Assembly (NCBI GenBank): GCA_038373885.1
Contig: JAWZYV010015814.1
Location: 744,001 to 808,000 of the forward strand
Reading direction: 5' to 3'
DNA length: 64,000 nt
Origin: Cheiracanthium punctorium
Taxonomy: Eukaryota; Arthropoda; Arachnida; Araneae; Cheiracanthiidae
Every line of letters begins with the position of its first letter. Positions within the stretch are counted from its first letter, which is position 1. The translations under genes were made by a program, and so were the position numbers. Positions 1-39,359 of this stretch are shown here, one piece after another. The notes beneath the pieces were generated by a model that worked only from the letters and a program-made list of their open reading frames with translations, did no database searches and was not told the origin of the DNA.

Positions 1-516
1 ATCATTGTTAGGATCGGTCATTCCATCAAACATCAACTGGTTATTCGATGACTGTAAATTTGACTGGGAATTTGATAAATATTGGTTTGGAAAATGGTTC
101 TGCAGATGCAGATCGGTAGAATTTGCATCTGAGGGAATTTTACTTAAAAAGTTGTTATGAAGTACTTTCCCAAGATAGTTATTTTGGTTGAAGTTATTGT
201 TCTGGGGTGCTAATGTCACATGCCCCCTTGAATCTGCAGTCACAATTTCCTGTTGCAAATGAGATGACAACAAACTCCTTGCCCCGACTTGCACATTGCT
301 AAAGCTGTACTGAGAGTTTGAGGCTGAACTTGTGCCACTTGTTGGTGCTCCAGTGTAAGGTGTATGGACAAGTTTCTTTTCTAGGTTCTTAGGAAGACGT
401 TCCTGAGGCAACTGAGAAACAATGGCATTTGCAACACTTGTTGGAACAGATGGTGCTGTTCTGGGTGTCTGAGCCAACATGGATGCTAGCATGGGATTCT
501 GACCAGCTAGATGAGC
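1..516 (-). CDS. tai: tai exon 12 (partial): polar central region
   Basis: The acceptor (TTTTTGCAG) lies at 517-525, and the exon reads in phase 0 from GCTCATCTA for 172 codons to the window edge without a stop. It begins [10 protein letters not shown] and is rich in Asn, Gln, Ser and Leu, ending in [11 protein letters not shown]. No folded domain is visible. In p160 proteins this stretch lies between the receptor boxes and the CBP/p300-binding activation domain, which should begin to the left of the window. A leucine-rich patch [11 protein letters not shown] is the most helix-like part. The downstream donor is not in view. Confidence 0.9.
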
Positions 517-3500: not shown

Positions 3501-6500
3501 CAAACACATAAAATTGATTGAAGAGTAACAGAACTTCCAGCAGCAAAATATAAAATTTCTTTTGTTTTAAAATATAGGACAGTAAAAAAACAAAGTAAGT
3601 GGCCTTACATAAAATGGTAACTTTTCTCAAATAGATATATTTCCAAATCTCATGAATATCTTCTGTTGAACTATTTTATTCAACAGAAACCTCTTTTAGC
3701 AGGGAACCCTCACAACTTCTTTAAAACAGCCTTTTCCCATGAGACAAATAGTTAACTCAAACTGAGTTATAATACAGCTAAAATATGCAGTGGAACCTGC
3801 TAAAGTGACCACCAGTCAATAGTGTATCACTTTTGTAAATTTTCACTTTGCAACCTTTGTAAGGCGACTACCTTTATAAAATGATCAGAGTTCAGAAGGT
3901 GGTGATTAGACAGAATCCACTGTACTTAATAAAATCTTTAGCACCATCCAAACTTAACATAAAAGATGTACTTCCATGTATGAATATTTTTTCCAAATAA
4001 ACTGCATTAATCAAAATTAAATAGGACCTATAAAATTTCACATAAAATTATGTGCATGTTTGATAAGATGAATTTAAAGTGGCATATCAAAAGCAGGTAC
4101 ATTTTGTGAATGTCGAACATCAGAAGGTATGGGGTTGGATGAAAAATCACATACTCATGTGTCTTCAGCAAAATAATACAGGACTGCAAAGTACAAAAGC
4201 TTGAGTCAGGGAGAATGGTGAAGTTGATGACTGTTTGCATACGTAGTTCCTTCAAAAATAAAGTGAACCAGTACAGTACCACCTTCTAGGCACGTAAGCA
4301 GAAAAAAATTTTGAGGGCGGTCAAAAATATGGAAAATTCAAAATTTATCACAAAAGGGTTTGATGAATGACATCCAAACAGCAAAAATTCCAATTTTGGG
4401 AGAGGCCCAGACCCCCTGGCTACATCCCTGCCCCCTCATTATACTGTGCAACGATATACTGCACATTCTGATATTTTGCACTTTTATATCTCCAATTTTT
4501 TTTTCTATTGTTTTTACTTTTTGCTTCAAAAATTCTCCTCAAAAAATTCAATGTGCCAAATAATGATACATAGAAATTGGAAAAAAGATTTCTCAAGATT
4601 TATGAGACTAGGGCATGGAGAAAGAGCGGGGGTGGGAAAACAGGTGTTGGTATATGAGTAGCTTAGATTCTATCGAAATGTAACAGTATGAGAGATGGGT
4701 AGAAAATGAAGGCAAAAAGAAAGTCTATGTATAATCATTTGCACATCTTTGGTTAATCCATGTTGGAAATTTTGTTGTGCTGTCTTATGAAATTTAGTGA
4801 AGGAAAGCAAACTATGAGAGAAAAATCAAAGCTGGTTTTTACAGTATACTGATATGGAAATTTTTTTAAGTGGGAAATAAAAGTGCATTTGCACATAAAT
4901 TTAAAAATATATATTAAATCTCTGTTTATTGTGTAAGTGACTCTTCTTTATTAAAGTATTTACACTATTAATTTCATTATATTTTAAAGTATTTTCATTC
5001 ATAAAAGTAAAATTTTATCATAACATTCCCACTTCAGTATTCATATATTTTTTTGTCTCTAAACAATGAGGGTTACTATACCACTTACTAGGATTATTTT
5101 GAATACTCAGATTTTAAAATTTGTCAAAATCCTTAGTGCTGTGTTAAATTTGGAACTTGTGTCTCATTACCTCTGAACCACAATGCACAATTTAAATGCA
5201 ACTATAACCTTATCTAGAACAGAGTTTTTCTAGCGAAGCTAATTTCATGTTATTCTATCTCTGTCATCATTAGCTTCTCATTTGAAGACACAAGGCTACA
5301 TGGCTATTTGAAGTTTTGAATCAATGGCTTTCACAATGATAAATTTGGCATAGAAGGATTTTAAAATGGGAAGTTTCAAAATAGAAGAACAAAAGCTAAA
5401 TAGCAATTCATAGAGAAAAAACATTCAAAATACTGGTGTTAATAGATAAAAACTTTGTATAAAAAACACACATGCTTTTATTTAATTTTATGTATGTTTT
5501 TCACACAAATTTTATGTATGTGTTTTACAAAAAGTTCTTATTTATTTTATAGAAATTCATAGTTAATAAGTCTATACAAAACTGCTTTACGTTTACAATT
5601 TCTTTCTTTTTAAGAAACAATGTCTTTTAAAAAAGCACAAACCTGATGTTACTTTAAGCTCATAGTTTTAATTCATATTAAATAAAACTAGTATTTCAGG
5701 GTGTCTACCAAATTTCTGAAAGTCAATTTCCTGACTTTTGGGAAGTTCCGGGAAAAAAATTCCCGACCAATGCATTTTACTTTGGGAAATTGCACAGTGC
5801 CCCCTCCCTTGTCTTTATATTTGCATATTTTGTACAACTTCTTGAAATCAATTTTAACTGAAGTATACAGGATTAAGCTTTCATCAATCGAGAAACAGAA
5901 GTAGTCACACTTTCTGATAGAATTAACTAATTGTTCTTGGAAATAAGGACGTATTTAGGGGGAGGTCTAGGGGGGTCCAGGACGCCCCCCCTCCCCCGAA
6001 ATTTTCAGTTTTGTTACTAAAATGATAGTCTTTTTGGGAAAAATTCAGCCTTTTTTACCGTTTGGACTCCCCGAAAATTGTTTTCCTGGATACATGCCTG
6101 CTGGAAATACGGTCTAAGCCATAAGTTACAAAGCAAGCTAATTTGTCTTTTACCCTCCCGTCGCGATTGATGAGCCCCATTTTCCTCTCCTTATACAAAC
6201 ACATCACTTGATGCTTTCCCGGTCCGAAAAATGCATTGCAGTTGCTTTCGGTTTCCAGTCTGACAATTAGAGAGAAAGGGTTAAAAAAAAAAAAAAAGAT
6301 TATTTTGCTGAATTTTCCGGACCTATTATCCAATTTCCAGACTTTTTGGAGCGGTAGACACCCTGTATTTAAAAGTTAAAAGCAATTAAGTAATTGCTAA
6401 ATTATTGTATTGATCAAACAGTTTTTTAAAAAAGCTTACTTTGCCATCTGTCTTTAGAAGTTCTTGTATGAGGTTATCTTGGGTCTTCTTCATAGTTTCA

Positions 6501-6774
6501 TCATTATTTAATAACTAACACAGACAAGGAAAAAAAAAAATCTTAATAGGTTTTATATTTACTAACATTAAACTATAATAAGTGAAAGTGCATAGTATCA
6601 ATTCCACATAATTTTTCTTTAATTTTATTAACTAAGATGGTTTCAATATATCAGGGTGTTAGTAGTAGCATAACATAAAATCATTATCTTGATTGATTTT
6701 TAAATTTGAGTTTAGAAAAATCAAATACTTTCTAAGCAATATCACATCTGACTTATAGGTTATACACATATGCA

Positions 6775-9800: not shown

Positions 9801-12800
9801 ATGGTGGGGCTTAATTTTGCCATTAAAACAGTTCCCCAGATATTCTTGTGCATAGTCCTAGGCAGATTGGCATATGTAACACCGCAAAATATTTCATCTC
9901 ACCATGGGTGGCAAACATCCCATCCAAGTTGTGCCATGTTTTTATTAGCTTCAAATTTTTTGAAAGAGAATGCAGAAAATTTACCAACAGAGCGAAATAG
10001 TTAACTTTAATGTGACTTTGGAGCCTAGACATTTATGTAAGCCAGCAGGATCTCCAATACTAAATGAAATCATTTTAATTATTGTTTAAGTTGATAAATT
10101 ATCAGGGTTCCCACTCAATTTCTGAAAAAAAATTCCCTGACTTTTCCAGGTTTTCTAACCTGGAAAATAGATAGTCATATGATAGTCATGTGATAAAAAT
10201 CAAGAGTATTTTTTATGCTTATGACATCAACTTTGCATATGTTCTTTAATATTTTTAGCCTTCCAAAGTAAGGTTAAACGTTGTTTGTTCACAAATACTG
10301 ATTTTCCAGTCCAAATTGTATGACTTTCCAGGTTTTGAGCCAAAATTTGCAATTTTCCCCAGACTTTTTTTGCGAAAATGAAATTCCCCGACTTTTCCAG
10401 GTTTTCCCTGACCAGTGGGAACCCTGATTATTATTAAAGTAACATACAAGTTTGCAGTTCTGAATAAAATTGTTTTCAGTTATTCACATAAATTGGTTGA
10501 AAGAGAAAAAAAATATTTACCTTTCTTAACATATTATTATTATTATTTACAGTAGTCCTCTTCTGCCCTGCATCATTTGAACACATTTCTGACGATAAAT
10601 TAACATTACAATTAGAATCACAAGGCAAAGTTTTTGCACTTTCATCCCGCATTTCTTCATCTTCTTGATTCAACAGCTCTCGAAGTATGATGTTCTCATT
10701 CCGAGAAGATACAATGTCCGAGTTATTGCGAGAGGCAAAATTATTTTCTGCCTCCTCTATCTTCTCAGCAGAAGTTTTAGGAACAGAAGAGTCAGCCTCT
10801 TCAATACCATGCGTTAACAAATTGCGCAGTTTCTGAGTAGCACTGTTCGTTGAGTTTTGACAGTCACCACCAATTAAATTACTAATTGGACTCAAACTCG
10901 ACAATTCAACATTACTACCCGAAAGTGAAGGTTCCTCACGCTTTATGAGGTTGGGTGCGGGAGATGAAGTCCTACTCACAGTCTGGTTAGAAACTGGACT
11001 AAATGGAAAAGTGTTCGAGAAAGGGGTCACCCTGCCTGGAGCAGGGCTTCCTGTGGTGCTGAGCTGAGCAGGAGATCGTGTAGATGGTGAGCCCCTGCCA
11101 GATAAGAGTTCCGGGCTGAAGGCACTACCCGAAGGATGTTGTGTTCGTTGTGGAGCACCAGAGTTTATGCTACTTGTACTCATGGGAGTCGATGGAGCTG
11201 CTCCAAGAGATGTCGACAGGTTCGCACTGTCTGCTGTACTCTCCGCACTCTCCTGCACTCCAACGACCAAGCTCTCCCAGCTGGAATTAGGTATGAATTC
11301 CAGTCCCATATCATTGAAATTTATGTCAGGTGACATGGCAGTAAAAGAATATGAATTTCCATTCATATTGCTGCCAATAGAAGGGGCAAGAGAACCACTA
11401 GCAGGTGAAGGATTGCTCCTTTGAGGAACTACCACATTGTTTTCTAAGCAACGGTCACTATCCCTACAATAAGAGCAAAGCACTATACTTAACATACTGC
11501 ATTTCAAGGTCTATACCAGGACTTTTCAACTTTTTAAAGGCAAATTCTGACAGATCCTATTTTAAAATAATTTCACTTGATAACAAAACACAGACAGCAA
11601 TGATATCACATTGATTATAGTGATAAAATAACTGATTTTTTGGTACAAATATTAACTATATATCTTTGACTTAAAATAAAATTCATGATAAAAAATAGCA
11701 AAAATAGATTTCTTCCCAAAGATAATTTATTGCAGCAGAAATATTTGGGCTGCAAGATTATTGTATAGTGTGATGTACACATTCATATAAATTTAATGAA
11801 TTTTTAAGCTTATTTTATTAATATTTAACTTTAGAAACAAATAAAATTGAAGTTTATGTTCTTTATTTCAGAAAACAAAGTATGTTAAATTTATGACTCT
11901 TGAAAAGATTCGAGAAGCCCTGGTACACAAAGCATTTAAAAGCAGGTTAAGGTTTTTTAGGGAAAATAACTTAAAAGCATAAAGCATCAAAAAAGCATAA
12001 AAAGTATAAAACATGAAATGATTAAAGCACTTTTTCAAGCATTTATTTACAGCAATATATACAAAATAAATAAATAAACAAACATGACAACAAAAGCACA
12101 TGCAAATAGGCAAACAATAGATATTGTTGGTAAGATACATACTAAAAATAATAGTTTCAATAAATAAAATTTGAAAATCTACACTCAAATATGTTTAATA
12201 AATTATACAACAATCTTCTTATATATTGAATAAGAATTTAACTGTGAAATATCTGATAAGAATTTAACAGCTTTAAATTAATAATACTTTTAATTTTTTA
12301 CTAAATATTGAAACACTTGAAGTCAGTATCTTGACAGCAAAAATAAAAATTTACAATTTCATTTACAAATGCATGTTAAAAGGCTACATATAATTAATTC
12401 TATCAGCAATCTTCTGGATAGCAATGTAAACATATTAATAATTTTGAATCTATAAGTTTATAGTGTTTCTCTTCTTTCTTAACTATGCTAACATTCCATG
12501 AAATTATTGCAGAAAAACAGTTTCAAATATTTTTTATCCAGATGCTTAAGGACATATTCGAAATTCAAAGGCTAATTTAGGTACATGCAGGGTTAAATTA
12601 TTTAAAATAAAACTTCTTTGGAAAAATAATTGAACTAATTATTAAAACAAATAAATAACTGTACTAAAATGAATTTTTACCTTAAAACAGTGTGGTTAGC
12701 TATAATAACTTCTGGTTCACTGGCCATTGAGGTATATCTTTTACTTTTAGTCTGCACGTGAATAACTTTTTGGTGAGGAAGTTTTAATCTATAAATGCCA

Positions 12801-15800
12801 CTGGTGTTGCTGCCTTGCTGGAGGGCTATAATAAAGAAATAAATTTTATTTTAAAGAAGAAAGAAATGCCAACATGGTTCAATTGACTAATAAAAAAGTA
12901 ATACAAATGAAGATTAATCAAGAGAAAGAGAAAGAAAAAAAGCTTCAAAAATAAAGCTGGGATTATAGATCAGTATAAAAACTGGACAACATTTCTCAAC
13001 GAAAAAAATATAATTCACACAGACTTATTGGATGAACTTAAGCAAATCTAAGGATGCAAGTACACATATTATGCATATACATATATATGTTAGTGTGTGT
13101 ATGTGTATATATGTATATTTATTATAAAGAAAATGTTATTCATATGAAACACGTGGTTTTTTCATTAAATTCATTCAAAGGGGCAAAAAGTGAAAATAAA
13201 AAAATAAAGTCACAGGCACCATGGAATAGTTAAAAGGTAGTCTTTGTGTGGCAGGAGGACAACTTTAATAAAACGTACATGTGAGGAAGTGACTGAGTGT
13301 TTAAAGTCATTTGAGGGGACAACATGCATGTTGCAAGAAAATTTTTGACAACATTTTAAGTTTGTTATAATTTGTTTTGCAACTAAGCAAATGATTCACA
13401 AGCTCAAAAAGTACTTGAATAATTACTACAAGTACAACTAAATATTAAACTTGAACATTTTATAAGGGGGAGGGGGAGCTTCTATGCTTCAATGATATGC
13501 TTAAGTTTTATTATTATCAATGTCTAATGTCCCATTATTCTTTGAAGAAATTTACTTTGCTACATAAATTAGGCATTCAGACCAATTGTTTTCACACAAA
13601 TACATATTTAAAGCCTTTAATAGTGAAATAAGTGACTTGGTTTCTATATACTGTAGTTTTGGCATCCTGAAGACTTACTGACAAGTACTAATTTTAGGGG
13701 ACCAGTAACCTTACTCTTCTTTGCACTGCATTTCTTTATCATTGAACAAGTTGTACTACAATCAAGTGGAATTGTGTGGATAGTAGAATTGTGTATGTAA
13801 TTAAACATACAATATTGGTATAGCATCCATAACATCTAATGTCTTATTTTGTGTAATATATTAGGTAAAAGGAGTGTAATAGGATGTTGTGTCTAGAAGC
13901 TTCAATAATGCCAAAAAACATTTTGGCTGTAAACAGGTTTTCCATTAATAAATAAAGAATACTACTTCGCAGAAATTAACCTATTGTTTTATGACTGCCT
14001 GAGTCTGGAACTGATTAACTGGTGAGTGAGGTCTGACTGTGCACAAAAATGCATACATCTTATCAGCTTTATCAACTATAAACAAAATGAATTATCAACA
14101 ATGCAGATTAAGAATAAATAGTAATGCATTAGCAGAAAGATTTTTTTTAGTGCACACAAGTGCCAGTTATTAAGATTTGCACAAGACAAATATCACACAC
14201 AAACAGCAAGCATAACAGAAAAATTAAAATAGATTTAATATTCATTAACATACTTTCTTTCAAATGATGAGTGACCTTTTGTACATCATCAGGATGACAC
14301 AGTTCAAGAATATTTTGCCCAATAAGATCTTTGTTAATATATTGACTATAATTAGTTGGAACACCACTAAATAATTAGAAAGAATGTAGGAGAAAAGATT
14401 GTCAAACAGTTTTATGGTACTATTATAAAAAAAATTTACAAAACAAAATGTAATTTTTTTCCTTCTTACCTAGTTTCTATTAATGTAATTTTACCATGCA
14501 AATCAAGACGAGTTAAAAAATTTATTAATACAGGTGCATTGATTTTCTCATTAGAGGGTACACGTCGAGCAACACAAACTAAATGGTTTTGAATATCTGA
14601 AAGATACACAAGGACAAAAATTAAAATCAGTATGACTGTAATAAAATGGTGTTAAGTGTCACACTGACACAAAACATTTTAACATTCAGTTAAGGTATAA
14701 GCTTTTGCAATAAAATACAATAAACACAGGTTAAATACATTCTGTTATAAATGTAAATACTGAACGAAGGCATTCAGTATTTAAAATCAGCATGAAAGGG
14801 ATGTTTGGAAAAAAAAATAGCAAGTTAAAATTTTAATTTTTAAATTAAATGCATGTAAAGCTGAAACAGTTTTCTTCGGCATATAGATAAATAAGCCATC
14901 TAAATACAAATCAGATTTTAGCACACTGTAATTATAGTCTAACCTTGTTAACCTTTCACAAGGCAATATTTCCACTGGCAGCATCAAATTAAGCATTTAT
15001 TGAAAAATTTAATTTTATCAATATTGACTTGAAAAAATTAGCAAATATAGTGAAAAGATGACTTGATTTTTTTAAATAGAATTTGCATTTCTATTATTAG
15101 TGTGAAACTAGATAAAAAATCATAATAGCCATTTTCAAAATCTAGTATGTATCTAGAGAGCTATCTTGATACATCCATCTCCTCCTTCAAACTTAATTCA
15201 TATCTTTACTTAAATTTTAAAATAAATCTCCCATTTATTCTTAATATTTTACTTATCATTTAAGCTACCCACAAAAGTATAGCTTCTAAAAATATAGTCA
15301 GAAATGACCAACTTTCCCAATTGGGAACACAGTGAAAATTGGGGAGTACAATTTTTTCCGACATTTCAATGATTAATATCCTTTAACTAATTCATTAGAA
15401 GGCAAAATAGGGAAAAAACTAATTAAAAATATGCCTGGATCTGAATTCAGTTTGTAAAAGGTTAAGACTAAATCAAAGGGGAGCAAAAAGCTTTCTGTAT
15501 AAACCAAAATTTGTATGAATCAATAAAACAGCAAAAAGAATTTAGGATAGATGTTCTTAAAAATAGATCATTAAAACAAAGATATCAAAGAATTTAACAG
15601 ATATCTGTTGAGAAATATTTTATGGTCATTTTAAGTTAATTAGTACTTTTATGCAAAAAGGTACACTTCTAACATAACCAGACAAACATACAAGCCCTTA
15701 CTGACACAGATACACATATGATGGTAGTAGTATATGTACTGTAATATTCTCATCAAAAAATGAGAAAGAAGAAATAAAATGTAAAAAATCACCTCTGTAA

Positions 15801-18800
15801 TTCAGACTTATTTTGCAGGAATTCTTGCATTCTATAATTGTTTAAAAAGAAATCCACTTTTTAAAATGGTCAGAAGTACAATTGGCATTTTTTTGTTGAA
15901 ACAGAAACCACTGAATATTTTTAAAGCCCCTATAAACTTCACTGAAGGACATAGAAGAGATTTTGACTTCTAAATCAGCTTCCATTTTATATTCAAACTC
16001 TTTACACTCCTTTTCAGTTAAAAATAAGGTTGAAACAACTAATTTTTTTTTTTTTTTTTTTTTTGGGGGGGGGGGGGTACAGGCGAAAAATGTAGACGTT
16101 AAATGGGAGACGTTTGTCTCCATGTTTGTATTAAACAGAGCAATTACTGCTGTTTTCCAAATTAACATGATGGGAAAACTGTCCTCCTTTGTTTTAGAGA
16201 AATTTTGTATAAAGCATTTTCATCTTAAGGTTTGACTATATTCAGATATCATTTAGTGAAACTTTTAAATATTAAATTTCTACTGAATAAAAAAAATTAA
16301 ATAACTTAGCATCGAAGAAGTAACAAAAATTATATCCAAAATTGAAATGTTAAAGCAAAAATTGGGAAATCCTTAATAAGGTTTCATACTTCAAGTGCAA
16401 GGAAATACAACTTATGAAGAAATAAAATTTAAAATTCCTAAGAAGGGACTTCATATTTTTTTCTTTTTAATTCAAGGTTTTATGGCATGCACTGTGCCTT
16501 TTGAAAACAGCAATTTAATAAAAAATTTAATGTTTGTCTGGCTGATATCAGGTTTATGCACACATAATATGATACCTGCTTGTCAAAATTAAGCTCAAGT
16601 TATCTTACAGGCAAAATTATCTCACACGTAGTATCCACAATTAATGATACTTTTTCTGCTAATATTTAAAAATATTTCATAATGTTTGTAAAACCAGTTT
16701 TTCAAATTTCAACTGAATATATATATTATTGATAGAAAAAAGAAAAAAAAAAATTCAGAAAAGACATTATATTGTGTCAATAGCCAAACAGTGGGAAAAA
16801 ATTAAACTATTGTGCATATTCTGAGTGAAAAAGCTTTTCTCGTTTCATTTTTCTATTTCTCTTACTGACACAACAGCCCCTGGTGGGTCAAGACCTCCCA
16901 AGAACCTCCTTTAATTCTGATCTCTTCTAAGCTAAGATTTTCCAGTTAGTAACATGTAATAAGTTACTAACTGGTTAGTATGGTATAAGTTAGTATGGAA
17001 GAATAAGATCTCCACATAATTAGTATATATCAGCTTGGGTCTACTTCTTCTTCTGGTTTCTATAGATTTAGCTGAAGATCTTAAAAGTCAAGGATGAGGG
17101 AGTCCATTCGGCGACATGGCCCACAAACCTATCTTGATGAAACTTAATATCCGTTTCCTTGAATAACCTATATAAGATCACAAATGAAGTTTCATCCTTA
17201 ATGTGCAATATTTCCTCAAATGTGAGGACTGCATAAAGTTAAGCTCCTCCTTATAAACTTTTTCTAAAATTCTTCACTGTTAAAAACTCATTAAAGATAG
17301 AAAAACTTTGGTGTATTGGTACCCCCCAGAAATGGCTAACAATCATCGTAAAACCACCTTCTGGTTTAAAAGAATTAACATGCATTTTTGTTATTTGCAC
17401 ACAGAGAAATATAATGCCTGAATTCCCAATTAACTTCGACTGGCAGTTCAGTAACTACCATTCGGAAAATTCAACTGGTCAGTCCAATATTCATATTCAC
17501 CGTTAAACGGGGAGAAAAAGTTACTGAACCTGTGGTAACTCAACCTAAGTTGAAACAGGACTTAGCAACAAGGTTGAAATGGGGCTTGGTTAAGATCAAA
17601 ACGCTCTCTGCTCAAGTGTCCACAAAGCATTGGGAGTTTGCATCAAATGGTAGATATTTATTTCGCGTCTCTCCAAGTGACCTCACAATCGCTCTACTTC
17701 CTCCCCCCCCCCCTCACACATCTCCACATACCTCTTCGTCTGGAAAGGGGATAGTCAGTTCTTGCAAGGGATTGATACGAGGAAGAAAAATTTTCAAGGA
17801 AAAGTCTTAACAGAGCAAGCTTGGTTATTTGAACCTACATTCAAAGCAAGATTGAGTTTTTGTATTTGAATTTAGGTATTATGCTGGGTGAGCTCCTGCC
17901 TGGTCATTGCTGAATACTATTTGAGCATTCGACCGAGAATTTGTTGTAAACTGGCGGTCAAGGTAAACAGTGAATGTCACCATAAATAACTTGAAATCAA
18001 ATTCTGGTCCAGAGTCAAGCCAATTGAGCTACCATTCTTTTTTTAATCAAAAATAAATTATCTTTACCAGCATCTAAATCTTCAGCTTCAGTTCTTTCTC
18101 CCGAAAAAGGCAGTAGTACAGCTGAAATCTGCATTTCTTCATACTGAGATATACGTGTTTGCTTTTCTTCCATAGTTTCCTCCTGATCTTCTGGAGGCTT
18201 GACCAGGAAGCGACAGTTGAAAGAACGGCTTTTACTGACAGATGTGTTGGGGTCAGACCAGCCAAACCCATTACCTTAGAAAAAAAAAAAATATTTTGAA
18301 ATACTTTCATTAAGTTTATCGTTTAACTCAAATCTAGAAGATAAATAATGGAATAAAATACTATCATTCAATTCAAATGAAAATTTTATAAAAGTATACA
18401 AGAGATAGCAAAAACAATGAAAATGCTGCTGTAATCAGTCAAAAATATGTCATGTTTTAAAAAAATATCTATCCAAAATTTGTAATAAAATCATCGGACA
18501 ATATTTTTCATCTATACTTTTGAATTTTATATGCCTCAATCACATTTATGCTTATGTGTGTATGTATGTATAAAAAAATATTCGTTGCTCCTCATTTATG
18601 GTTTTAAATGCTTCAGACATAATACACATTCTTAAGAGTTGAAAGAATACCAAAATTTGAAAAATCGGAAAATCAGAGAAATTAATCTACTTTGTTAAAT
18701 TTTATATACAAATATTTGTAACTTTAAAAATTATATCAAGTCTTTGTATACATTTTCCCTCAAAATTTAACCTGCAAATTTTGAGAACAGTCATTACAAA

Positions 18801-21800
18801 CTATGTCTAAGGGCTATTAAAAATCTTATGTAAAATTTAGTTCTTTGTTCAGAAGTATAATGATCTGATAACTATATAACCTATGTTAATAGCTGCATAA
18901 ATGTGCATTTGAGAGATTAACCGGTGCAGATAATTCATGTATATTTACTACTTCTTGGGGGGGGTGAGGGTGGAGAGGGATGGTTGGAAGAATAAGCAGA
19001 CAGTTTTATATAAATCCCCAGTTTAAAAAGCTTAGTACGAATTTATTTTGTAATTCATAAGATATGACCGAAATATGAACATTTAATAACCAGAAAAAGC
19101 CATAATTCAGATGTGTTGATATTCCAAAACTTTATTTAAAAATGAGAACTTGTCCAGAATTCAAAGTCTTTGCATTCGTGATCCATAATAGGAAAAATTC
19201 AATACCCAGAATCACTGAAGTCAAGACGATTCTGAATTTCCATTGAATTTATCTTTTTGTGCTGTGAATTATGTGCCACCAGCCAGATACATGCATATCT
19301 AGGAATTCATTTTACCCAAACAGTCAATTTTCCAAAGAAATAGAATGAATAATCCCCTTTTAATTGACATCATAACCTTCAATTCTATAAAAACATACAG
19401 CAAGAAATAAGGAGGAACCAATAATGCATTCCCCTCGCCCTCTAACGGAATTGGGAACAGCCATGATGCTAATTGAAAAGTAGGAAAATAAAGAATAATA
19501 CAACCTCTGCTTAGGATAAGTTTTCATAACTTATAGAATTTATGAATACACTTATGTAATATTATCTTTATTTTTTCAATTCACATAGGTATTTGATAAA
19601 AATAACTTATTAAAAAATAATAATACAATCTTATTCTCACCTATTGACATAGGTAACAAGTTGCTGCTAAATCTAGCATGATCTCCTACGTGAATAATGT
19701 TATAAATACTTTTATCAATAAGGCTTTCCTATAAAATAAAAACATTTAAACACACATTTAGTAACGAATTAAATTTAAAAGAATACTAAGTTATCACTAA
19801 TGACAACGAAAAACATAAAACACTGGATTTGATAGTTAAATCATGCTGTTTATTTAGGGGACGAAGGGGGAAACAGATTACTTGAAGAGTGTCGATAACC
19901 TTTAAGAGATTTTGTAATTATTTCCCGGAGCTTTTCTTGTTACAATATCTGAGATAGAAATTAAAATCCTTCATTTATCAATATAATTCTTCATGATAAA
20001 CTTAATATTTTATGCAACATGACAGAAAAAATGCTTTCTTTGCATGATTATGATAATTTCACAAAAATATTTGATGGAAAATTATAACTTTTTATTTTAA
20101 AATGTACAACAATACCATGCAAAGTCTTAAATTCTACAAATTATAGAACATAGTTTGAATGACATTCAAAAACTAAAACTCTAAAATCACTCAAAATATT
20201 TCCGATAAATGAATCCCTATTCATTCTAAGAAGTTGTTTACTTAGGACATTTAGCAGTATTTATAAATTACATGAAAATCCATCTAGATAGTTTTGCAAT
20301 TCTGAAGACTATAGATGACTGGCTACTATTGCTGAATAACATCTTGTAGGGGGGGGGGGGTAAAAAGTTAATATTTGTACAGGTTATCTGTCTTAATGGA
20401 GAATTTACTACTACTTATGTAAACATTGAAATGAGACACTACGTAAAACAATCCATTAAGCAAAATTAGTAAGGTATTTATAAAGTATCAAAGTTTCTCA
20501 ATTATAAATCAATATTTGATAATATAAATTAACCTTCAGGAAATTTAGATAAAATATTAAACTTTAGTATGCATATTTAGTAAAAAATAAAATAAAGGGG
20601 GGAAATGCACATTCTATTAAACTCTGAACAATTAGGGAACATGTTCCAACCCACCCCTTGAGAAAAACAAAAACAATAAACTCAATTATTAATCTTCACA
20701 AATAAAATTGGTTAAAGACATTTACTTACTTGACTATATTTCAAAAACTTTTTTACATTTGCAGTCACAAACTCTATCTTGCCATCTGTGTTTACCATAA
20801 ACAAGAAACCATCTAAAGCCTGAATAATAGAAATAATTCACTATTTATGGTTGAAAATTAAAACATAACTTAATTTTACAATATTAGGTTTCTTTAATAT
20901 ATATATGTATATGTATGCATCAGTGAGATCACATGCAACATTTAAATTTAAACTTAATAATTCATTTTAAAAGCAATGGAATTACAAACATTAGACTTAA
21001 AAATCCTATGTTATGCAATTTTTTGAAAAATAATAGAGGGAATTATAATGATTTTAAGTATGCTGAATCATTTTTATTTAGAAAATTCTTCAATAATTTT
21101 TACTATTTACCTTAAGAATGTATCATTACAATTGAATGAAAATTTTAAATTAATCACACTATAATATAAAAGCATCAGACATAATTTGCCCTGAATTAAA
21201 ATTTTTTTCTTATCTTAATTAAAGAGAAAAACTTAAAAATAGAAACAAATAATAGTTGTTCGAAAACTGCAAATGAAAAATAAGTTTTTTTTATTCTAAC
21301 TCAAAATTTTTTTCCCAAATTTATATGAATCATTTAATATAAAGTTTTAGAAGGACACATAAGAGATAAAATATTTCAAAAAGAAAGAGTGCATTTAAAA
21401 AAAGAAAAAAACATTACTACCCAATAACATAAAAATTCACTTTGATTTGACAGCTTTAAATTAAAATAAACTAAAAACTTTGTGTTCAAACAATTCTTAA
21501 TACCTACAAATCAAAGTAACCGTTGAATTTTTAACAAGTATCAATATCCTACAAATCACCTACCTAGTCATCCACACCTACAAATTTTTAACAAAATTTC
21601 AACTATGCATTCAATGCCTTTTTGTTCTGTATTACAATGCAGTACAAATTAGTATTCTTCAGTACAATACATTTGGTTATAGTAACTTCTCATCTATTTA
21701 TCTTTTAATGATTGATTAATACATTTAATTTACTTCTTCAATAAAACAAAGCATACTTAGCAGTGTCGAGAGAGAGAGAGAGAGAGAAAACTGAAAGTAA

Positions 21801-24800
21801 TTATGCAATGGCACTGTGTGCTATTCTATATATAACCAAAATTGGTTTAAAAAATCCTTATTTAATTTTTGGTAATAAGCACTTAAAGCACTGGATTAGC
21901 AAAAATTTAAAACAGGCCAGAACAACTGCTGTAATGAGTTTAAAATCTGTAACTAGTTGTTACATAGTCATGTAACAGCGTCCCCAGTCTGTTGTTAGAC
22001 TGCTGAGCCATTTGCAGATTGGGGGAGCCCCAGGCTGAATTTTGTTTGGAGATAATTTTATCTCCCGCAACTATGAAGATTTTTTTTGCCTGTAAAATGC
22101 TTCTCATCTGATGTTATCCATATCGTCGTTCTGAGACTTTCCATTTTATTTGTCTTCAAATTGTGTACGGGGATATCTCAATGTTTTTCGGCGTCTTTTA
22201 AAGGGCAACAAAGAAGGCAATGAAGTAAGAAGGCGGTAGATGGTGAATAATCTTCAAAAATGTTGACAGCAGACCCTTGTAAAAAAAAAAAACATTTCAA
22301 TTCCACTACTTGCCTTAACATGAAAAACATGAGCTAAGTGGCTGACGTGATAAAAGGTCTACTACTGAATGAAAACTTTATCTGCAGAGTTTCTTCTTCA
22401 ACTTCATTTTTGATTTTGTTCATGAACGTAAAAAGGAACAAACTGTGGTGTGAAGTGCAACAAAGTTCGTAACTTGCTACTAAACCGTGGTGTAGAGTGC
22501 AACAATGTTCGTGACTTGCTACTTAGCCATTTTCACAGGATGCTGAGGGGCGGCCGTGTTGCCAAGCCAAATTTCTCCGAGTTTAAAATAAGCAAAAGCC
22601 AACGTGGAACTGTCAACGGACTGAACAACGAATGACTGATAGACAATTAACTCCAAGAACTGTGTGAATTCCTAGAACTGTTTAATCTACCAGAACTTTG
22701 CTAAATGATTTAGAAAGAACTAAATATAAAAAAAAACTTAGCATATACAGTGCATGAGAAGCAGAGAGGAAGCAACGATGGGCAGCTGGTAATTATTAAT
22801 TAAATCTTATATTTACAGTAAACATATCAAGTTCCATAACTCCTTTTTCCTTCGTATTTAAACACATATTGACATGTAAAAATTTGAAAAAGTAATTCAA
22901 TTTAATATAAATTTGCTGGGGAACTTCTTCAACATTTTGAATTTTCATATTTGTGATTGATGTTGTATACATTGGATGTTTCATTTTTAGTCCATTAATT
23001 ACTAAACATTTAACATTTTATTTTAATTGGATTTTGCCAGGTTAACATTTGGGACAATTTAAAATGACTTTCAATTGACACAACATTCTGACATGTATTT
23101 TAGTGTTATTGTTGTTTGATGCAAAGGTGTTTAATTTAAATTTGAAATATTGATTTTAAAATTCTAATTTTAAACCCTTCACTTCATTATGAGGTCATTT
23201 GGGCCTAATTGCAGTCTTAAGAAAACAAAATTTGGGTAGTGTTATTGTTCGCTTATAAGCATATATATACATTTATAATCCAGAGTATTTTCATGTTGTA
23301 TTTGTTATGCAAGAGTTTTCAATAAAAGCAAAGTTTAAAGGTTAAGTTGGAATGTTTTCCTGAACTAGTCTCCCTTAGGCAGAGTCATTCCTTTAGCTTG
23401 GAGACAAAATTGGCAATTCTCTCAGGATTTTTCCAGGTGAGTGTTTAAGAAAATTAAAACTCCTTTTTTCAGAGTTATAATGCCTAGTAGGAACTTCGCA
23501 ATGTACAAAATTTTATTTTAACCCTTTTTCAGTGTTTTTGCCTCTCATGGTTATCATTTCTTATCACTAGTTTATAAAAAAAAATTATTGCAATGTTAAA
23601 TATAGTTAACAATATATTACAGTAAAAAGAAAATTACTAATTTAAGATGGATGACACATTCAATTTTCAAAATTTCTTCTCTTTTAAATGTTTTTTTTCC
23701 CTTCTATTTTAGACAACCCAAAATTGCACTTACATATACAAAAAAATACCTGAGTCAGCCATTAAAAGAATAGTAATAGGTAACAATAGCTAGGTTTTTA
23801 TTAATGACTATGTCATTTTTATCTCTCATCCCCTTTATTAAAAATTGTCCGAAAAATGTGTCCCGAAAAAGCGACAAAATTTTACATACATTTAAATACT
23901 ATTAGTTCACAACAGCTTTAATCTATTGTTACAATATTTCGTAAGCTGTAGAATAGGCATCACATGTATTTTTTACACATATTTAAATATTATTAGTTCA
24001 CAACAGCTTTAATCTTTTGTTACAATATTTCGTAAGCTGTATTTTTCTATAAATAGGTTACAATCCTAAAAATTTCAACATAGGGATTACCAGGCGAAAT
24101 ATACGAAAGATGAGAGATAAAATGAGAAAGTCAATTAATATTGTTTTAATATGGCCATAATGAAACTAAAAAATTAGGGGGTTTCAGGGGGTCAACCCTG
24201 ATGAGGCTCAAACAGCTGAGTTTTTTTTTTTTTTTTAAATGCTTTAAATTGCGATTCCATCAGGAGGGGGGGGGGGCGCCAATCAAATGGAAAATCTACT
24301 ATTAGAAATGTCCACCAGAACTTATCAGTATCAATACAAAAGCTGTTTCTTAACTAGCAGGAATGAGTAAATCAGGACAGCTTTCTAATTGGTTGCTGGT
24401 CATTAATACATTCCAAACTTATCGAAGCATCCATAATTTCAGTACTTTCCAGAATCACTTTTATGCAAAATTTAAATTTTTGACAAATCAAGATTACTTG
24501 GAATAAGAGATCGCCATTTTAAAATTAAAACAAGACATTGCATGAAAACTTACTTGGAGCAAAATTGGACCGACAAGATCGTTGCCAAAAAGATTTGGTT
24601 TACTAGATGAAACCTCACTCTTTTGAAGGTCATCACTAGAACCACACTCTTCTATTAGAAAACAAACAAAAACAGATTAATACAAACTAAATTAGAGCTA
24701 AAAAGAAAAAAAAAACTTTAGAATAAATATATCTAATAAAGTATACAGTGGCGAAAGAAAAAAAAAATCATTTTAATTTGGTAAGAATACTGTTGATAGT

Positions 24801-26466
24801 TAAATTGTGTGTAAAAAAGTTATTGCATGTTTTCATGGATGTACAATAGTGGATGATACTGTAATTAGTTTGGAAAGCTGGAAGGTTTTTTGCAATGTAC
24901 AGGGTTGTCAGTGGTCTAGAAAAATTGAAATAGTAAGGAAATCTTACTTTAGGATGTAGTTTGAATGAAAAAAAAACTTGTTTTTGGTCTTGGTACACAG
25001 AAATAAACTAATAGCACCAGGGTCTTGAAAAAATTCAAGATGGTTCTTCACAAGCTGCATGACAAACTGTGATAAGTGAAACAACTGTGCTTTTTCTGAA
25101 ACTCCCACAAAAAATTCTTAAGCATGGAACTGCACTGCAAAATTTTTGTAAGAGTTTTGCAAATTTTTTAATTTTAAGAAAATTTTCTAAAAGTTTGTAA
25201 CCGATACAGGTTTATCGTTTATTTCAACTTATGTACCAAAATTACATAATTTTTTCGAACTACAACTTTAACTGAAAAAGTCAGGGAAATTTGCAAATTT
25301 TAGCTATAAAACTGGAAAATCTTGAAGTGTGGAGTGGAAAATTATTTGAAGTCTGCATTCATAGTTTAATTTTACATTTGCCGTATGTTTAGGAAAAAAT
25401 AAAAATGAATCGATATAGCCCAGAAGCAGAAAGACCTTAAAAGTGTGACATACGTCACAGAACAATTGCAGCCTTTGCAGAATATTTCATTCTTTAAAAG
25501 AAAGAAGAAATAAAAATGATATGATCTGCAGAACAATTAAGCAAAGTGCCCTTTATGCTATGCCTTCTCCCCTTACTTTTTGCACAATTTTTATATCTAT
25601 TTTGCATTTAACTGCAGTCCGCCAGATTTTAACGAAATGCCTACAGAACATTTGCAACTATTTGAGGTCTTGTTGAAGAACACTGACTGGATATGATTCT
25701 GCTCCTGGGTGATATAAATGAGCAAAAGTGATGGATATAGTAGGGTTTTCTTTTTTTTTCCCAAGGAAAGGGGGGGGGGGAGCCTAGTTAAAAAAAGTTA
25801 TTCAACAAACAGAATATACAATAAAGCAAAATGTTAACTAAACCACTATTTTCTTTTTTAAAATAAGCCCTTTTAAAAAAGAAAAAAAATCTGTATCCAC
25901 CATGCCAGTTTTGTGCACCTATATCAAGTCATGTTTAAAATGCTGAACCTCTCAGAATTTCAAAAACCTCTCAGAATTTCAAACTAATAGCATGATAATT
26001 ACCCACACATGCATTTCCATGAAAACAGGCTAGTTTTTCTATTCCTTTTTTTTTTTAAGCCCAACTTAAATGTCAGCTTTATTACTGCTGAATTAAAATG
26101 TAATTTTTTTTTTTTCCCCCGTTGGCATTGTATATAACAAGTTAAACTATTCAGAGCTATTTAGTGAAAAACATCAAAGGTATGAGAGTTTTGGTAACAG
26201 AAATGATGAACACAAACTTGATAAGGATGAATGTTTACTATGCAAGAACCAAAAATTTTATATCGCTCAACTTCATACAAAGAAATAAATGCTTACCAAG
26301 TTTAATTTGACAGATTTTATTGACTGTTTCCTGAAGTATGGCACACTTGTCAGGGTTGACAGAGAGGGAACACATGTCAGAGGCACTAGCAGAGATGTAG
26401 CCTGCTAGCTCATCCAGGTAGTCACTCTGAGACTCCTGGCCTCCTTTTTCATTAAGGCACTTGGGG
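1..26466 (-). CDS. tai: p160/SRC nuclear receptor coactivator (taiman/NCOA family), 12 exons seen, both ends missing
   Basis: Twelve exons joined by GT-AG introns with agreeing phases give 899 uninterrupted codons: HLH, PAS-A, PAS-B, a Ser/Pro-rich region with three LXXLL receptor boxes, then a polar central region. Family knowledge: p160 coactivators bind ligand-loaded nuclear receptors through LXXLL helices and recruit CBP/p300 and methyltransferases in the nucleus; insect taiman partners the ecdysone receptor and, through its PAS domains, the juvenile hormone receptor Met. Diagnostic strings include [10 protein letters not shown] in the HLH, ALDGF and IIHVGDH in [13 protein letters not shown] between the PAS domains, and VQTKSK in PAS-B. 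The N-terminal coding exon was not found, and the CBP-binding and C-terminal glutamine-rich parts lie beyond position 1. Oddities: the basic region of the bHLH is lost and one LXXLL box spans an intron. The family call is very secure. Whether this is the main tai orthologue or a diverged paralogue is open. Confidence 0.95.
1148..1340 (+). repeat. Dispersed repeat R1, copy 1
   Basis: This is similar over about 190 bp to 59554-59790, sharing the run that starts AGATCTTGCATTTTTGTGTA, and in its second half to 56255-56400. Class unknown; it joins directly to the tandem repeat at 1355. Confidence 0.7.
1355..1745 (+). repeat. Tandem repeat, unit about 130-150 bp
   Basis: Units share TTTTAGTAGGCGATTTTAA, then TGGAACAAAGAAG, then ACTCTTGGATTA(T)GATGC and a TTTAAA/GGTGAAGTATAGTT segment. 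Units start near 1375, 1525 and 1680, with a further one at 2338-2500 after an insertion. A reverse-orientation copy lies at 34805-35040. It is satellite-like or the inner repeats of a larger unknown element. Confidence 0.7.
1748..2337. mobile_element. Inverted-repeat DNA element interrupting the tandem repeat
   Basis: About 35-bp inverted ends (left from GTTGTTTCCTATTTTAAC, right from GTTGATTCCTACTTTAAC on the other strand) differ at four positions. The element separates two halves of a repeat unit, with similar CAAGAGA and CCAAGAAA flanks. No coding capacity. A hAT MITE sits inside it, so this insertion is the older one. Confidence 0.7.
1872..2084. mobile_element. hAT-type MITE, 213 bp, 8-bp TSD AACTAGAA
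   Basis: The ends are CAGGAGTGGCAAACC and GGTTCGCCACCCCTG, near-complementary. They are flanked by exact AACTAGAA copies at 1864-1871 and 2085-2092. No ORF. Confidence 0.9.
2338..2500 (+). repeat. Fourth unit of the tandem repeat
   Basis: Resumes after the 590-bp insertion with AGAAAGACAAATACAGCACA, TGGATTATGATGCACATTC and TTTTAGTAGGCAATTTTTAA, matching the units at 1355-1745. Confidence 0.65.
2854..2979 (-). CDS. tai: tai exon 11
   Basis: Exactly 42 codons in phase 0 at both ends. The acceptor TTTATAG directly precedes GTATCGGG, and the donor is AACAT followed by GTAAGT. The product is polar with basic clusters ([16 protein letters not shown]) of the kind found in nuclear localisation signals. 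An exon of whole codons could be skipped without a frameshift, so alternative inclusion is possible. No known domain. Confidence 0.88.
3788..3922. mobile_element. pogo-like MITE, degenerate
   Basis: CAGTGGAACCTGCTAAAGTG at the left and GACAGAATCCACTG at the right form short inverted ends typical in sequence of pogo/Tigger elements. The right flank is TA and the left flank TG, consistent with a decayed TA duplication. It is 135 bp with no ORF. Confidence 0.5.
4287..4430. mobile_element. Degenerate hAT-type MITE
   Basis: The left end TAGGCACGTAAGC and right end GGCTACATCCCTG resemble the CAGGGGCGTAGCC ends of elements further right, with the same G/C-rich inner edge. The flanking 8-mers match only in part, so the limits are approximate. 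Confidence 0.4.
5697..6365. mobile_element. CAGGGT-ended DNA element, 669 bp, 5-bp TSD TATTT
   Basis: Perfect 13-bp inverted ends CAGGGTGTCTACC with TATTT on both outer sides. Subterminal GACTTTT and TTTCTGAAA motifs are shared with 10103-10426. A G/C-tract inner segment around 5945-6010 resembles sequence at 58921-58980 and may be a nested fragment. No transposase. Confidence 0.75.
6440..6514 (-). CDS. tai: tai exon 10: completes third LXXLL box
   Basis: 25 codons, phase 0 at both ends. The acceptor GTCTGTGTTAG precedes TTATTAAATAAT, and the donor is GGCAAA followed by GTAAGC. It starts [10 protein letters not shown] and includes [12 protein letters not shown]. Joined to exon 9, which ends MLRK, it makes LRKLL, a canonical LXXLL receptor box with its two final leucines supplied by this exon. 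The exon is a multiple of three, so skipping would remove this box without a frameshift. Confidence 0.88.
9585..9631. repeat. Short hairpin in intron 9
   Basis: TTATAGGCAGATGC and GCATCTGCCTATAA face each other across about 19 bases. Possibly the ends of a tiny or deleted element; function unknown. Confidence 0.45.
9727..9815 (-). repeat. tRNA-derived SINE fragment
   Basis: The minus strand shows TGGCTGAGTAGATAAGACG (9783-9801), which fits the tRNA Leu/Ser-type A box, followed by a B-box-like GAAGATCC stretch. Related copies are at 37104-37340 (+) and near 48000-48130 (-). Confidence 0.55.
10103..10426. mobile_element. CAGGGT-ended MITE, 324 bp, 5-bp TSD ATTAT
   Basis: The ends are CAGGGTTCCCACT and AGTGGGAACCCTG, and both flanks are ATTAT (10098-10102 and 10427-10431). 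Internal GACTTTTCCAGGTTTT repeats occur near both ends in opposite orientation. Same family as 5697-6365 by ends, TSD length and subterminal motif. Confidence 0.8.
10521..11463 (-). CDS. tai: tai exon 9: Ser/Pro-rich receptor-interaction exon with LXXLL boxes
   Basis: 943 bp. The acceptor is CTTATTGTAG and the donor is AGAAAG followed by GTAAAT. The first G completes an Arg codon from exon 8, and the exon then reads [10 protein letters not shown] onward for 314 codons. The middle is Ser/Thr/Pro-rich and probably unstructured, with several S-P/T-P sites. IKRE (10935-10946) fits the sumoylation consensus. Receptor boxes: LRNLL (within 10815-10832), LRELL (10671-10685), and MLRK at the very end, which becomes LRKLL when joined to exon 10. 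Spacing and an acidic stretch after box 2 (NQEDEEMRD) resemble p160 receptor-interaction regions. This exon explains hormone-receptor binding. Confidence 0.93.
11464..12680 (-). other. Intron 8 of tai
   Basis: The donor is GTAAAA just below 12681 and the acceptor ends at 11464. AT-rich, with no recognisable element or exon. The open frame at 11868-12188 is a chance low-complexity frame. Confidence 0.75.
12681..12825 (-). CDS. tai: tai exon 8: end of PAS-B
   Basis: 145 bp. The acceptor is CTTTATTATAG, and the donor is TTTTAAG followed by GTAAAA. It reads [20 protein letters not shown] then [10 protein letters not shown] and [12 protein letters not shown], matching the last PAS-B strands of p160 proteins (family pattern IYRFSL...AQTKSK). 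Two bases at each end are shared with neighbouring codons. Confidence 0.93.
12826..14253 (-). other. Intron 7 of tai
   Basis: Donor GTATGT at 14248-14253. AT-rich with a short TA/TG microsatellite (13073-13125). No exon or delimitable transposon seen. Confidence 0.75.
14254..14366 (-). CDS. tai: tai exon 7: PAS-B
   Basis: 113 bp, 37 whole codons plus one base at each end. It reads [20 protein letters not shown] then [11 protein letters not shown]. The CHPDD motif is the typical PAS helix-loop turn and strongly supports PAS-B. It is separated from exon 6 by the shortest intron of the gene, 103 bp. Confidence 0.93.
14470..14596 (-). CDS. tai: tai exon 6: PAS-A/PAS-B junction
   Basis: 127 bp. 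The acceptor is ATCTTTCAG and the donor is ACTAG followed by GTAAGA. It reads [17 protein letters not shown], then [16 protein letters not shown]. The LVCVARR string closes PAS-A in the p160 family, and TRLDLHGKI opens PAS-B. Phases of two bases at each end agree with exons 5 and 7. Confidence 0.94.
14597..18067 (-). other. Intron 5 of tai
   Basis: Donor GTAAAG at 18062-18067. It contains half of a dispersed repeat (15025-15310), a T20G13 homopolymer junction (about 16041-16078) and otherwise AT-rich unique-looking sequence. A tract at 17430-17950 is less AT-rich, with an open frame (17532-17810) that shows no domain and no good splice context. Confidence 0.7.
15025..15310 (+). repeat. Dispersed repeat R2, intronic copy
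   Basis: This is collinear over about 290 bp with 54420-54720, sharing AAAAGATGACT, TTGCATTTCTAT, GAAACTAGA and CAAACTTAATTCATATCTT blocks in order. Class unknown. Confidence 0.75.
18068..18274 (-). CDS. tai: tai exon 5: PAS-A
   Basis: 207 bp. The acceptor is TTTTTCTAAG and the donor is GATGCTG followed by GTAAAG. It reads [44 protein letters not shown] and [17 protein letters not shown] and the YEEMQ segment match the family pattern (SHTFNCRML, YE.MQCF). The linker TMEEKQTRI is acidic and variable, as expected. Confidence 0.94.
18275..19640 (-). other. Intron 4 of tai
   Basis: Donor GTGAGA at 19635-19640, acceptor at 18275-18276. Only AT-rich sequence and short G runs (about 18956-18965). 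No exon or transposon delimited. Confidence 0.75.
19641..19728 (-). CDS. tai: tai exon 4: PAS-A
   Basis: 88 bp. The acceptor is TTTATTTTATAG before GAAAGCCTT, and the donor is TCAATAG followed by GTGAGA. It reads [20 protein letters not shown] then [10 protein letters not shown]. The IIHVGDH and NLLP strings are near-invariant in p160 PAS-A. Confidence 0.95.
19729..20729 (-). other. Intron 3 of tai
   Basis: Donor GTAAGT at 20724-20729. AT-rich with a 12-base G run (20349-20360). Nothing else recognised. Confidence 0.75.
20730..20819 (-). CDS. tai: tai exon 3: start of PAS-A
   Basis: Exactly 30 codons, phase 0 at both ends. The acceptor is TATTATTCAG. It reads [20 protein letters not shown] then [15 protein letters not shown](L/F)F.VN..G.I.FV is the family signature of the first PAS-A strands. 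Confidence 0.95.
22446..22530 (+). repeat. Imperfect tandem duplication, unit about 43 bp
   Basis: GTGGTGTGAAGTGCAACAAA and GTGGTGTAGAGTGCAACAAT begin two successive units, both continuing GTTCGT(A/G)ACTTGCTACT. It sits in a GC-richer island within intron 2 and may be part of an unclassified repeat. Confidence 0.6.
23818..24123. mobile_element. Possible inverted-repeat element with internal duplication
   Basis: TTTTATCTCTCATC near 23818 faces GATGAGAGATAAAA near 24110. Between them a roughly 61-bp block (23887-23948) is repeated about 98 bp later, ending both times in TTTCGTAAGCTGTA. No TSD resolved. Confidence 0.45.
24554..24651 (-). CDS. tai: tai exon 2: HLH to PAS-A linker
   Basis: 98 bp. 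The acceptor is TTTTCTAATAG and the donor is CTCCAA followed by GTAAGT. It reads [19 protein letters not shown] then [15 protein letters not shown](D/E)(V/I)SSS and LGP.LL just ahead of the PAS-A start are characteristic of vertebrate and insect p160 proteins. Confidence 0.93.
24652..26296 (-). other. Intron 1 (between the HLH and linker exons)
   Basis: Donor GTAAGC at 26291-26296. AT-rich with a G10 run near 25771. A short direct repeat, CTCTCAGAATTTCAAA, occurs twice near 25950-25983. No exon seen. Confidence 0.75.
26297..26466 (-). CDS. tai: tai HLH exon with degenerate basic region
   Basis: 170 bp. The acceptor AATTATAG precedes CCCCAAGTGC, and the donor is AAACTTG followed by GTAAGC. 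One base, then 56 codons from PKCLNEK, then one base. [16 protein letters not shown] and QIK fix it as the p160 HLH and place it in register. Where the family carries a KRRREQE-type basic stretch, this gene has KGGQESQSD of equal length. Further unusual residues are AGYIS for AELIS, SVNPDK for SVKPDK, and KICQIK for QIRQIK. The reading frame stays open and the flanking splice sites are good. A purine run GAAAAAGGAGG at the change could hide an indel in sequence or assembly. The preceding exon must end with two bases of a split codon and was not located. Confidence 0.93.
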
Positions 26467-27925: not shown

Positions 27926-29159
27926 AATATAATATAAAGTTAGTTTTCTTAAAAAAGAAAAAAAAAACTTGTATAAAATAAGTTAAATGCAAATAGAAAG
28001 GGGGATGACATAGAACTATAATTTTCTGTTTAAAAAAAAAAAAAATTATCAATTCAATTAGAAGATGCTTTTGTTGAAAATTTAACCATTTTGTAAAAAG
28101 AAAAAAGCCAAGTTTCAATGTTTTAGAATAAGCACAATAAAACTAAATGAATCAATAAACAATACAGTATCAATTTGTTATATCGTGATTTTTCTATGTG
28201 TTTTAATTTTAATCCTTTTGTTTCATTACTTTACTTGAAAAAGCTTACATTGATTGAAGTTACAATTTTCAAATGCAAAGTGAAATGCAATTAATTTTAA
28301 CTCAATGATTTTTATTAGAAAGCAAGTTAAAACAGAAAAATCAAAGTAGGAAGCTTTTTCAGATGGAAATCTAAAGAGTATTTGTATGTAAATTTAAAAA
28401 GTTTCATTTAAACTTCTATGCCCATTATTTAAATGATTATCTTTTATTATAATATGCAACTAACTCTCTATTATATTTTAAGTGCATAGGTTTATAAAAG
28501 TAGCATTTTATCATATAACATCCCTCTCTCATCCCCTTGGATGGATACATTGCACTGCGCCCTTGAATATATTGTGCATTTTTCTTGTCTCCTGACAAGC
28601 ATGATATAACAACGGACTACAGTAAAACAAAATAAAGATGGTTGTTGGTTTTCTTATTTCTCTTACATAAATGAAAACAATAGCAATAATAAAATGCACC
28701 AGCTAAGTATTTGAACTGAATCATAATTAGATTTCTTAAATTCATAACATGTAATTTGAAGCTGAGATGGCTTTCCATTACTCGAGAGCAAATGAAATGA
28801 AGTATATAGTAATGAATTGTCAAGAGTTTCACATACTATTGAAACTGTAGCTTAAAATCAGCCTCTTCAATCCTATCCAAATTGACATTTGGAGAAATAT
28901 TCATTTCAAGAAACAACCCAAAAATATAACTTCATTGGCTGGGCCTGGAATAAAGAAAATTGATAATGAACTAAATACATACATAAAAACATTAAGTTAC
29001 ACTACTCCATGAGTTAGTTTTTTGTGAAATTTCTTGTAATAGGTAATGTTTATTATAACAAAATCCATTATAAATTTATATATATTCTTCAAAAGAATAC
29101 AATGAATATTGATACAATTGCATTATAAAGGTACCAATAAAAACAAACACACACACACA

Positions 29160-39267: not shown

Positions 39268-39359
39268 CCCAAAAATATACTTGGTATTCAACTTTAAATC
39301 CCTTCAGAAAGGAATTTATAAGTTGGACGGTTTACTTCACAGAAAATGCCGTTTACACT

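Follow-up and report, generated by a model that had tools for sequence, protein, structure and literature searches.

A spider p160 coactivator copy with a rewritten basic arm and a kept helix-loop-helix, beside a second copy whose basic arm is intact

The minus strand of a 64,000-nucleotide stretch of the genome of the spider Cheiracanthium punctorium (contig JAWZYV010015814.1, positions 744,001 to 808,000; hereafter the window) carries a gene, copy A, that is a p160/NCOA coactivator by descent, as judged from its bHLH_NCOA match (basic helix-loop-helix, bHLH), its PAS region, its nuclear receptor (NR) boxes, and its placement in trees. As read from the sequence, two positively charged clusters of its N-terminal part have been replaced at equal length: KKRKK, which belongs to the first coding exon, and KRRREQEN, which belongs to the bHLH exon. 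The helix-loop-helix (HLH) half is kept in the absence of the basic arm, as are the PAS region, the NR boxes, and the C-terminal motif. The same genome holds a second p160 locus, copy B, in which both clusters are intact. Spiders as a group appear to have such a pair of old copies. We consider it probable that copy A is a retained old duplicate that keeps the HLH dimer half and has given up the basic or import arm, in a subfunctionalization with copy B.

The bHLH exon of copy A occupies positions 26466..26297 of the minus strand (170 bases; both strands were read), between an acceptor ...attatAG and a donor G/GTAAGC. The Pfam family PF23172 (bHLH_NCOA) matches it with 51.3 bits (E 1.7e-13, cut-off 27), a score that therefore reflects more than chance and that, together with the codon listing, bears out a preliminary description of this exon as the p160 HLH exon with an equal-length KGGQESQSD in its basic region. 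This segment (26421..26447, minus strand) is as long as the canonical KRRREQENI, keeps one of the four basic residues, and is not of the KRRREQE type. The other departures listed in that description, AGYIS, VNPDK, and KICQIK, had been read correctly, but most of them are not peculiar to this copy: among eight A copies compared, seven of which have the segment, AGYIS is found in 4/7, its Y in 6/7, and the N of VNPDK in 6/7, whereas KICQIK occurs in the window copy alone. Since the relatives share these residues, what sets the window copy apart comes down to GGQ, the leading P, and KIC. A compensated indel or base error, which had been thought possible, is also unnecessary, because relatives differ at the same residues with equal length and because GGA GGC CAG is three single-base changes away from CGA CGC CGG, the presumed ancestral codons. 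A DNA search of the assembly with the exon returned no match other than the exon itself, and a six-frame motif scan found no other p160-type basic exon in the window. When the exon was searched against PDB sequences, none of the three matches (E 1.2-1.4) was to a p160 protein.

The first coding exon, MNISPNVNLDRIEEADFKLQFQ(Y), lies at 28837..28904 on the minus strand. It was found by tblastn with the N-termini of relatives (E 4e-9 to 2e-6), in agreement with the alignment, and encodes 23 residues, which is the canonical length, with DRIEE in place of the KKRKK of other p160 proteins. Taken together, this exon and the basic segment carry a net charge of -2 in copy A of the window and of +7 in copy B of the same genome. 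A review locates a bipartite nuclear localization signal (NLS) of the SRCs in the bHLH-PAS region (PMC13368381), and a study on NCOA3 describes an import that relies on two bHLH signals, with K17 and R18 linked to turnover (PMC7689448). These two residues may correspond to the KKRKK exon.

A bHLH_NCOA search of the 2.53 Gb assembly gave three matches, two of them over the cut-off. The second p160 locus, copy B, is at C5268:217314-217463 (63.5 bits), with KRRREQEN intact. Its bHLH exon is preceded by the exon MSLAPHAGSKKRKKSDSKPHSQI, in which KKRKK is intact as well, and the copy was followed as far as C5268:277000. Nine exon pieces of copies A and B match at 25-67% identity, and the duplication is therefore old. 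The third match, on C9801, reaches 21.1 bits, has a stop and nothing p160-like around it, and was taken as chance. As for the loop, the C. punctorium copy B (L009 1501-1650, equal to C5268:217314-217463) and lgn121 read SNPHKQDK, and seven other B copies read SLSCKPDK.

Among the best 120 of 1,302 matches in a protein search with copy A, the closest relatives come from Stegodyphus dumicola (82% identity over residues 1-340), Uloborus, Araneus, Trichonephila, lgn5, and Caerostris, with Oedothorax lower. Instead of one common Gly/Gln-rich version, these relatives carry different basic segments: KLHRESSND in Stegodyphus, LQPRESITD in Uloborus, KRRRESTQD in Araneus, KRRRESTHD in Trichonephila, KRRRQCEIR in lgn5, KGRRESTQG in Caerostris, and none in Oedothorax. 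EQEN is kept in none of the eight A copies, the window copy included, and KKRKK in none of the seven with a comparable N-terminus (that of lgn5 is short). KRRR is intact in 3/8 (Araneus, Trichonephila, and lgn5), retains three of its four basics in Caerostris, and is gone or absent in 4/8. Judging from these comparisons, the basic arm changed long ago, and to different degrees in different A copies. A search with copy B gave eight B proteins with a bHLH among the best 120 of 756 matches, and in these and the C. punctorium copy B, the basic segment retains 14/14 sites in 9/9 copies. A third search (66 matches) contributed two fragments, one of a Caerostris A copy in which the bHLH is missing and one of a Limulus protein that is basic-less; P0129 and P0154 are likewise fragments that do not include the bHLH.

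At least three of the four basics are present in 163 of the 177 p160 proteins with an alignable HLH, from 209 collected; the count leaves out 32/209 without one, including Oedothorax gibbosus copy A (P0020), a predicted protein without the whole basic segment and the first helix. The 14 proteins with two basics or fewer comprise two spider A copies, five horseshoe crab proteins, one sea spider protein, and six others (P0079, P0089, P0164, P0172, P0185, and P0201) that we judged to be truncated or odd models. The sea spider protein, Pycnogonum litorale P0041 (predicted NCOA2), has no basic segment (GGSRDHCFEELAELIS) and keeps the upstream KKRK; it represents either a third loss of the basic segment or a gene-model error. 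No named scorpion protein was among the p160 matches listed.

The loss in copy A has a counterpart in copy B. Site retention was scored relative to a consensus built from 12 outgroup rows, with 14 basic, 38 HLH, and 164 PAS sites. The window copy A retains 7/14 basic, 29/38 HLH, and 127/164 PAS sites, and copy B of the same genome retains 14/14, 27/38, and 91/164, respectively. Over all rows, the A copies retain 113-143 of the 164 PAS sites (69-87%) and the B copies 79-98 (48-60%), and the values for rows that look unduplicated are 133 in lgn11, 127 in ena29, and 121 in Pycnogonum. Horseshoe crabs have basic-less copies with 137-141/164 PAS sites and intact copies with 124/164. The direction is the same in 9/9 A/B or horseshoe crab d/c pairs (Fisher p 8e-7 to 1.2e-3), although these nine tests stand for two histories, take sites as independent, use c1 twice, pair different species of one genus in two cases, and rely on an arbitrary pairing in horseshoe crabs.

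Comparisons within each group agree with this pattern. Averaged over the pairs of six A copies (Oedothorax and lgn5 excluded), identity stands at 0.56 for the basic segment, 0.90 for the HLH, and 0.77 for PAS, compared with 0.97, 0.92, and 0.56 among six B copies from the same genera, and with 0.52, 0.93, and 0.85 among the basic-less horseshoe crab copies. In the A copies, 7/10 columns of the basic segment are variable vs 9/38 in the HLH (p 0.010). For the first exon, identity is 0.75 among A copies and 0.75 among B copies; thus, the rewritten exon of A, being as uniform as the NLS exon of B, looks held rather than freely drifting. In a 37-row tree described below, the PAS stem below the lgn rows measures 0.91 for B and 0.17 for A. 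On these alignments and branch lengths, the decay is reciprocal, with A losing the basic arm and B diverging in PAS. The preliminary description had not foreseen that the change is an old and graded one, that KKRKK is lost too, or that B shows a mirror-image change in PAS.

To place these copies, two trees were built, one of 30 rows and 1,541 columns with the bHLH left out and seven insects and crustaceans omitted, and another of 37 rows that includes these seven, with about 340 residues each. In the first, the A copies (8), the B copies (9), the basic-less horseshoe crab copies (4), and the intact horseshoe crab copies (2) each form a group at 100/100, the six horseshoe crab rows come together at 100/100, and lgn11, whose arm is intact, joins B at 100/99. 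The second recovers the same groups, with the A and B clades at 100/99 and 100/100, horseshoe crabs together at 100/97, and lgn11 with B at 83/91. A single origin of the basic-less copies of spiders and horseshoe crabs was rejected, as the log-likelihood drops by 58 units when A and the basic-less copies of horseshoe crabs are forced together (approximately unbiased, AU, test: p 2e-20), for groups that were chosen after the first tree had been seen, a procedure the tool warns about. We therefore favour separate losses in the two lineages, as far as these trees allow. If the 37-row tree is scored for two basics or fewer, at least four changes of the basic arm are needed, counting Pycnogonum and the horseshoe crabs. 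A genome duplication in arachnopulmonates has been described (PMC5535294), and A and B may well stem from it. For horseshoe crabs, three duplication rounds have been reported (PMC7815833). The main texts of these two papers mention neither taiman nor coactivator.

Several alternatives to a retained and subfunctionalized duplicate have to be considered. One that we regard as possible, if on balance unlikely, is relaxed constraint only: with B present, the arm of A became dispensable and drifted, and A has no altered role. The KRRR half is indeed worn differently in each lineage (GGQ, LHR, QPR, GRR, or absent), and the four or more changes on the tree are what one would expect of drift. Nevertheless, the adjoining HLH of the A copies retains an identity of 0.90, their rewritten first exon varies no more than the NLS exon of B does, B is altered in the opposite domain, and horseshoe crabs are split in a similar manner. 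It is very unlikely that isoform choice supplies the arm, by way of an alternative first exon or of a bHLH exon used in a mutually exclusive manner. Insect p160 genes do carry many listed isoforms, but the genome has only the two bHLH_NCOA matches over the cut-off, with no other in the window, and among the matches listed there is no credible canonical KKRKK exon in 134 kb of the A locus.

It is highly improbable that the gene in truth encodes KRRREQE and has been misread through faulty assembly or base calling or through a compensated frameshift, even though a purine run is found where the change starts: the A copies of Stegodyphus, Uloborus, Caerostris, and Oedothorax are also altered at KRRREQE, the first exon of relatives is altered likewise, single-base changes suffice, and the exon is single-copy in the assembly. 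Finally, the first two coding exons have lost conserved residues, which could be the mark of a decaying pseudogene, a reading that we find scarcely credible, given that the coding stretches are open to the C-terminal motif KKSLLQQLLSEPP, that the retained PAS sites exceed those of copy B, and that the Stegodyphus orthologue is so similar over its first 340 residues. The suggestion in the preliminary description of a diverged, retained duplicate rather than decay is therefore upheld by the open frame, the spider orthologues, and a second tai locus with an intact arm, which the genome search located.

A number of observations weigh against subfunctionalization between A and B as we propose it. 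Since KRRR is intact in three A copies and mostly kept in Caerostris, the loss of this half is not general in A, and the Stegodyphus B copy has TRKREN instead of KKRKK. A KRK...KRP pair inside copy A, a possible bipartite import signal by its sequence, is still present, with similar pairs in the other A copies reaching that exon, in horseshoe crabs, in ticks, and in several B copies, and copy A may thus be imported by means of this internal pair. In horseshoe crabs, one of the basic-less copies, d3, retains a positive charge in its short N-terminus, and the PAS gap is modest, as intact copies are no worse than ena29 or Pycnogonum. A clade of A, B, and lgn11, as a single duplication on the arachnid stem would produce, is missing from the free tree, although holding these together as one clade is not rejected by the same kind of test (AU p 0.184). 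In the AlphaFold models of Stegodyphus A (P0001) and B (P0122), two HLH helices are present in both (block pLDDT, predicted local distance difference test, of about 44-76), and in A one helix is still drawn through the altered arm with low confidence; these predicted models decide nothing between the readings. The dependence among the nine Fisher tests belongs with these points.

If copy A is a subfunctionalized duplicate, it would act as a nuclear receptor coactivator that holds its partners through the HLH and PAS, without an arm that contacts DNA or directs import, and copy B would carry the arm function; the two copies would in this way have divided the ancestral work. One review passage states that NCoA proteins lack DNA binding (PMC4553631), and, in another study, purified MET-TAI complexes bind response-element DNA (PMC8683598). 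If chelicerate p160 proteins did both jobs, the division would leave the PAS and receptor-binding half to A and the arm to B. An HLH-PAS protein without an arm could still hold a bHLH-PAS partner while adding no DNA half of its own, and altered nuclear import or partner choice of A can be proposed from its sequence.

The positively charged arm of the p160 basic region is thought to aid nuclear entry or DNA contact, and its candidate functions include import, turnover, DNA contact, and partner choice. Given that A and B separate the arm from a well-kept PAS half, a comparison of the two would reveal which of these functions depends on the arm. If our proposal is true, these copies would also exemplify, at the level of the protein, how duplicates divide their work reciprocally, and horseshoe crabs seem to offer a parallel. 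A full-text literature search, judged on titles and the starts of abstracts and covering few subscription papers or preprints, found no description of spider or horseshoe crab p160 duplicates or of a p160 without a basic region.

Regarding the layout of copy A, 13 coding stretches were placed in the window on the minus strand, with splice junctions set by eye for the first exons only and the rest being open frames placed by similarity. Downstream of the two exons already described (the bHLH exon being supported by its PF23172 match, its sequence, and its splice sites), similarity places an exon at 24554..24651 and PAS-region exons at 20730..20819 (...KYSQ), 19641..19728, 18068..18274 (GNGFGWSDP...DLDA), and 14469..14597 (...IET), the ends of this last one and of those that follow up to the window-edge exon being approximate. 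The PAS-B exons are at 14252..14368 (...HLKE; PAS_11, 25.8 bits, cut-off 25) and 12680..12823 (...TVLR, by similarity). The receptor-interaction exon at 10521..11462 contains the central LXXLL NR boxes LRNLL and LRELL and ends in NNNNMLRK, and the exon LLNN... at 6437..6514 (tblastn E 3e-7) completes a third box, MLRK/LLNN, which spans the exon junction. The possible bipartite import signal is in the exon at 2845..2979, as read from its sequence, and the exon at 1..507 runs beyond the window. Further exons lie outside it, and open stretches continue to the conserved C-terminal motif at C10755:715603-715677; the gene therefore spans about 57 kb, and its model, in which PAS and NR boxes are present, is about 1,430 residues long.

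The DNA upstream of the gene contains repeats. A block at 44187-45106 recurs 5.2-5.6 kb away at 49503-50940, in pieces that are 61-95% identical, and includes tandem arrays of 173-bp units (49522-50015) and 86-bp units (50510-50768). A second interspersed family, 67-78% identical, is found at 39352-39490, 52447-52585, and 57832-57900, and at 52626-52694 and 57964-58032.

Compared with known p160 proteins, copy A has in common with insect Taiman/FISC/SRC and vertebrate NCOA1-3 the order of bHLH, PAS, LXXLL, and C-terminus, and differs from them in having neither the KRRREQE segment nor the KKRKK cluster. The basic-less horseshoe crab p160 proteins (P0007-P0010 and P0170) are like copy A in that both of their N-terminal clusters are lost or rewritten, their HLH is kept, and they have intact sister copies (P0022 and P0036); nevertheless, their replacement residues (NDRSCQSQES, NDRLQES, and NDRGHPQREA) differ from those of A, and they are on a separate branch of the tree. 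A further likeness is to Id and Extramacrochaetae, which are HLH proteins without a DNA-contacting basic arm. A bolder reading, which we hold to be rather unlikely, is that the p160 bHLH-PAS module was split twice in chelicerates, after separate duplications, into an armless HLH-PAS copy that may hold partners such as Met in an Id-like manner and another copy that keeps the arm with a changed PAS. On that reading, the p160 basic arm would be a separable, selected function in arthropods. Copy A resembles Id and Extramacrochaetae in keeping an HLH without a basic arm; the Id proteins, however, are small and lack both PAS and NR boxes, which the large copy A possesses.

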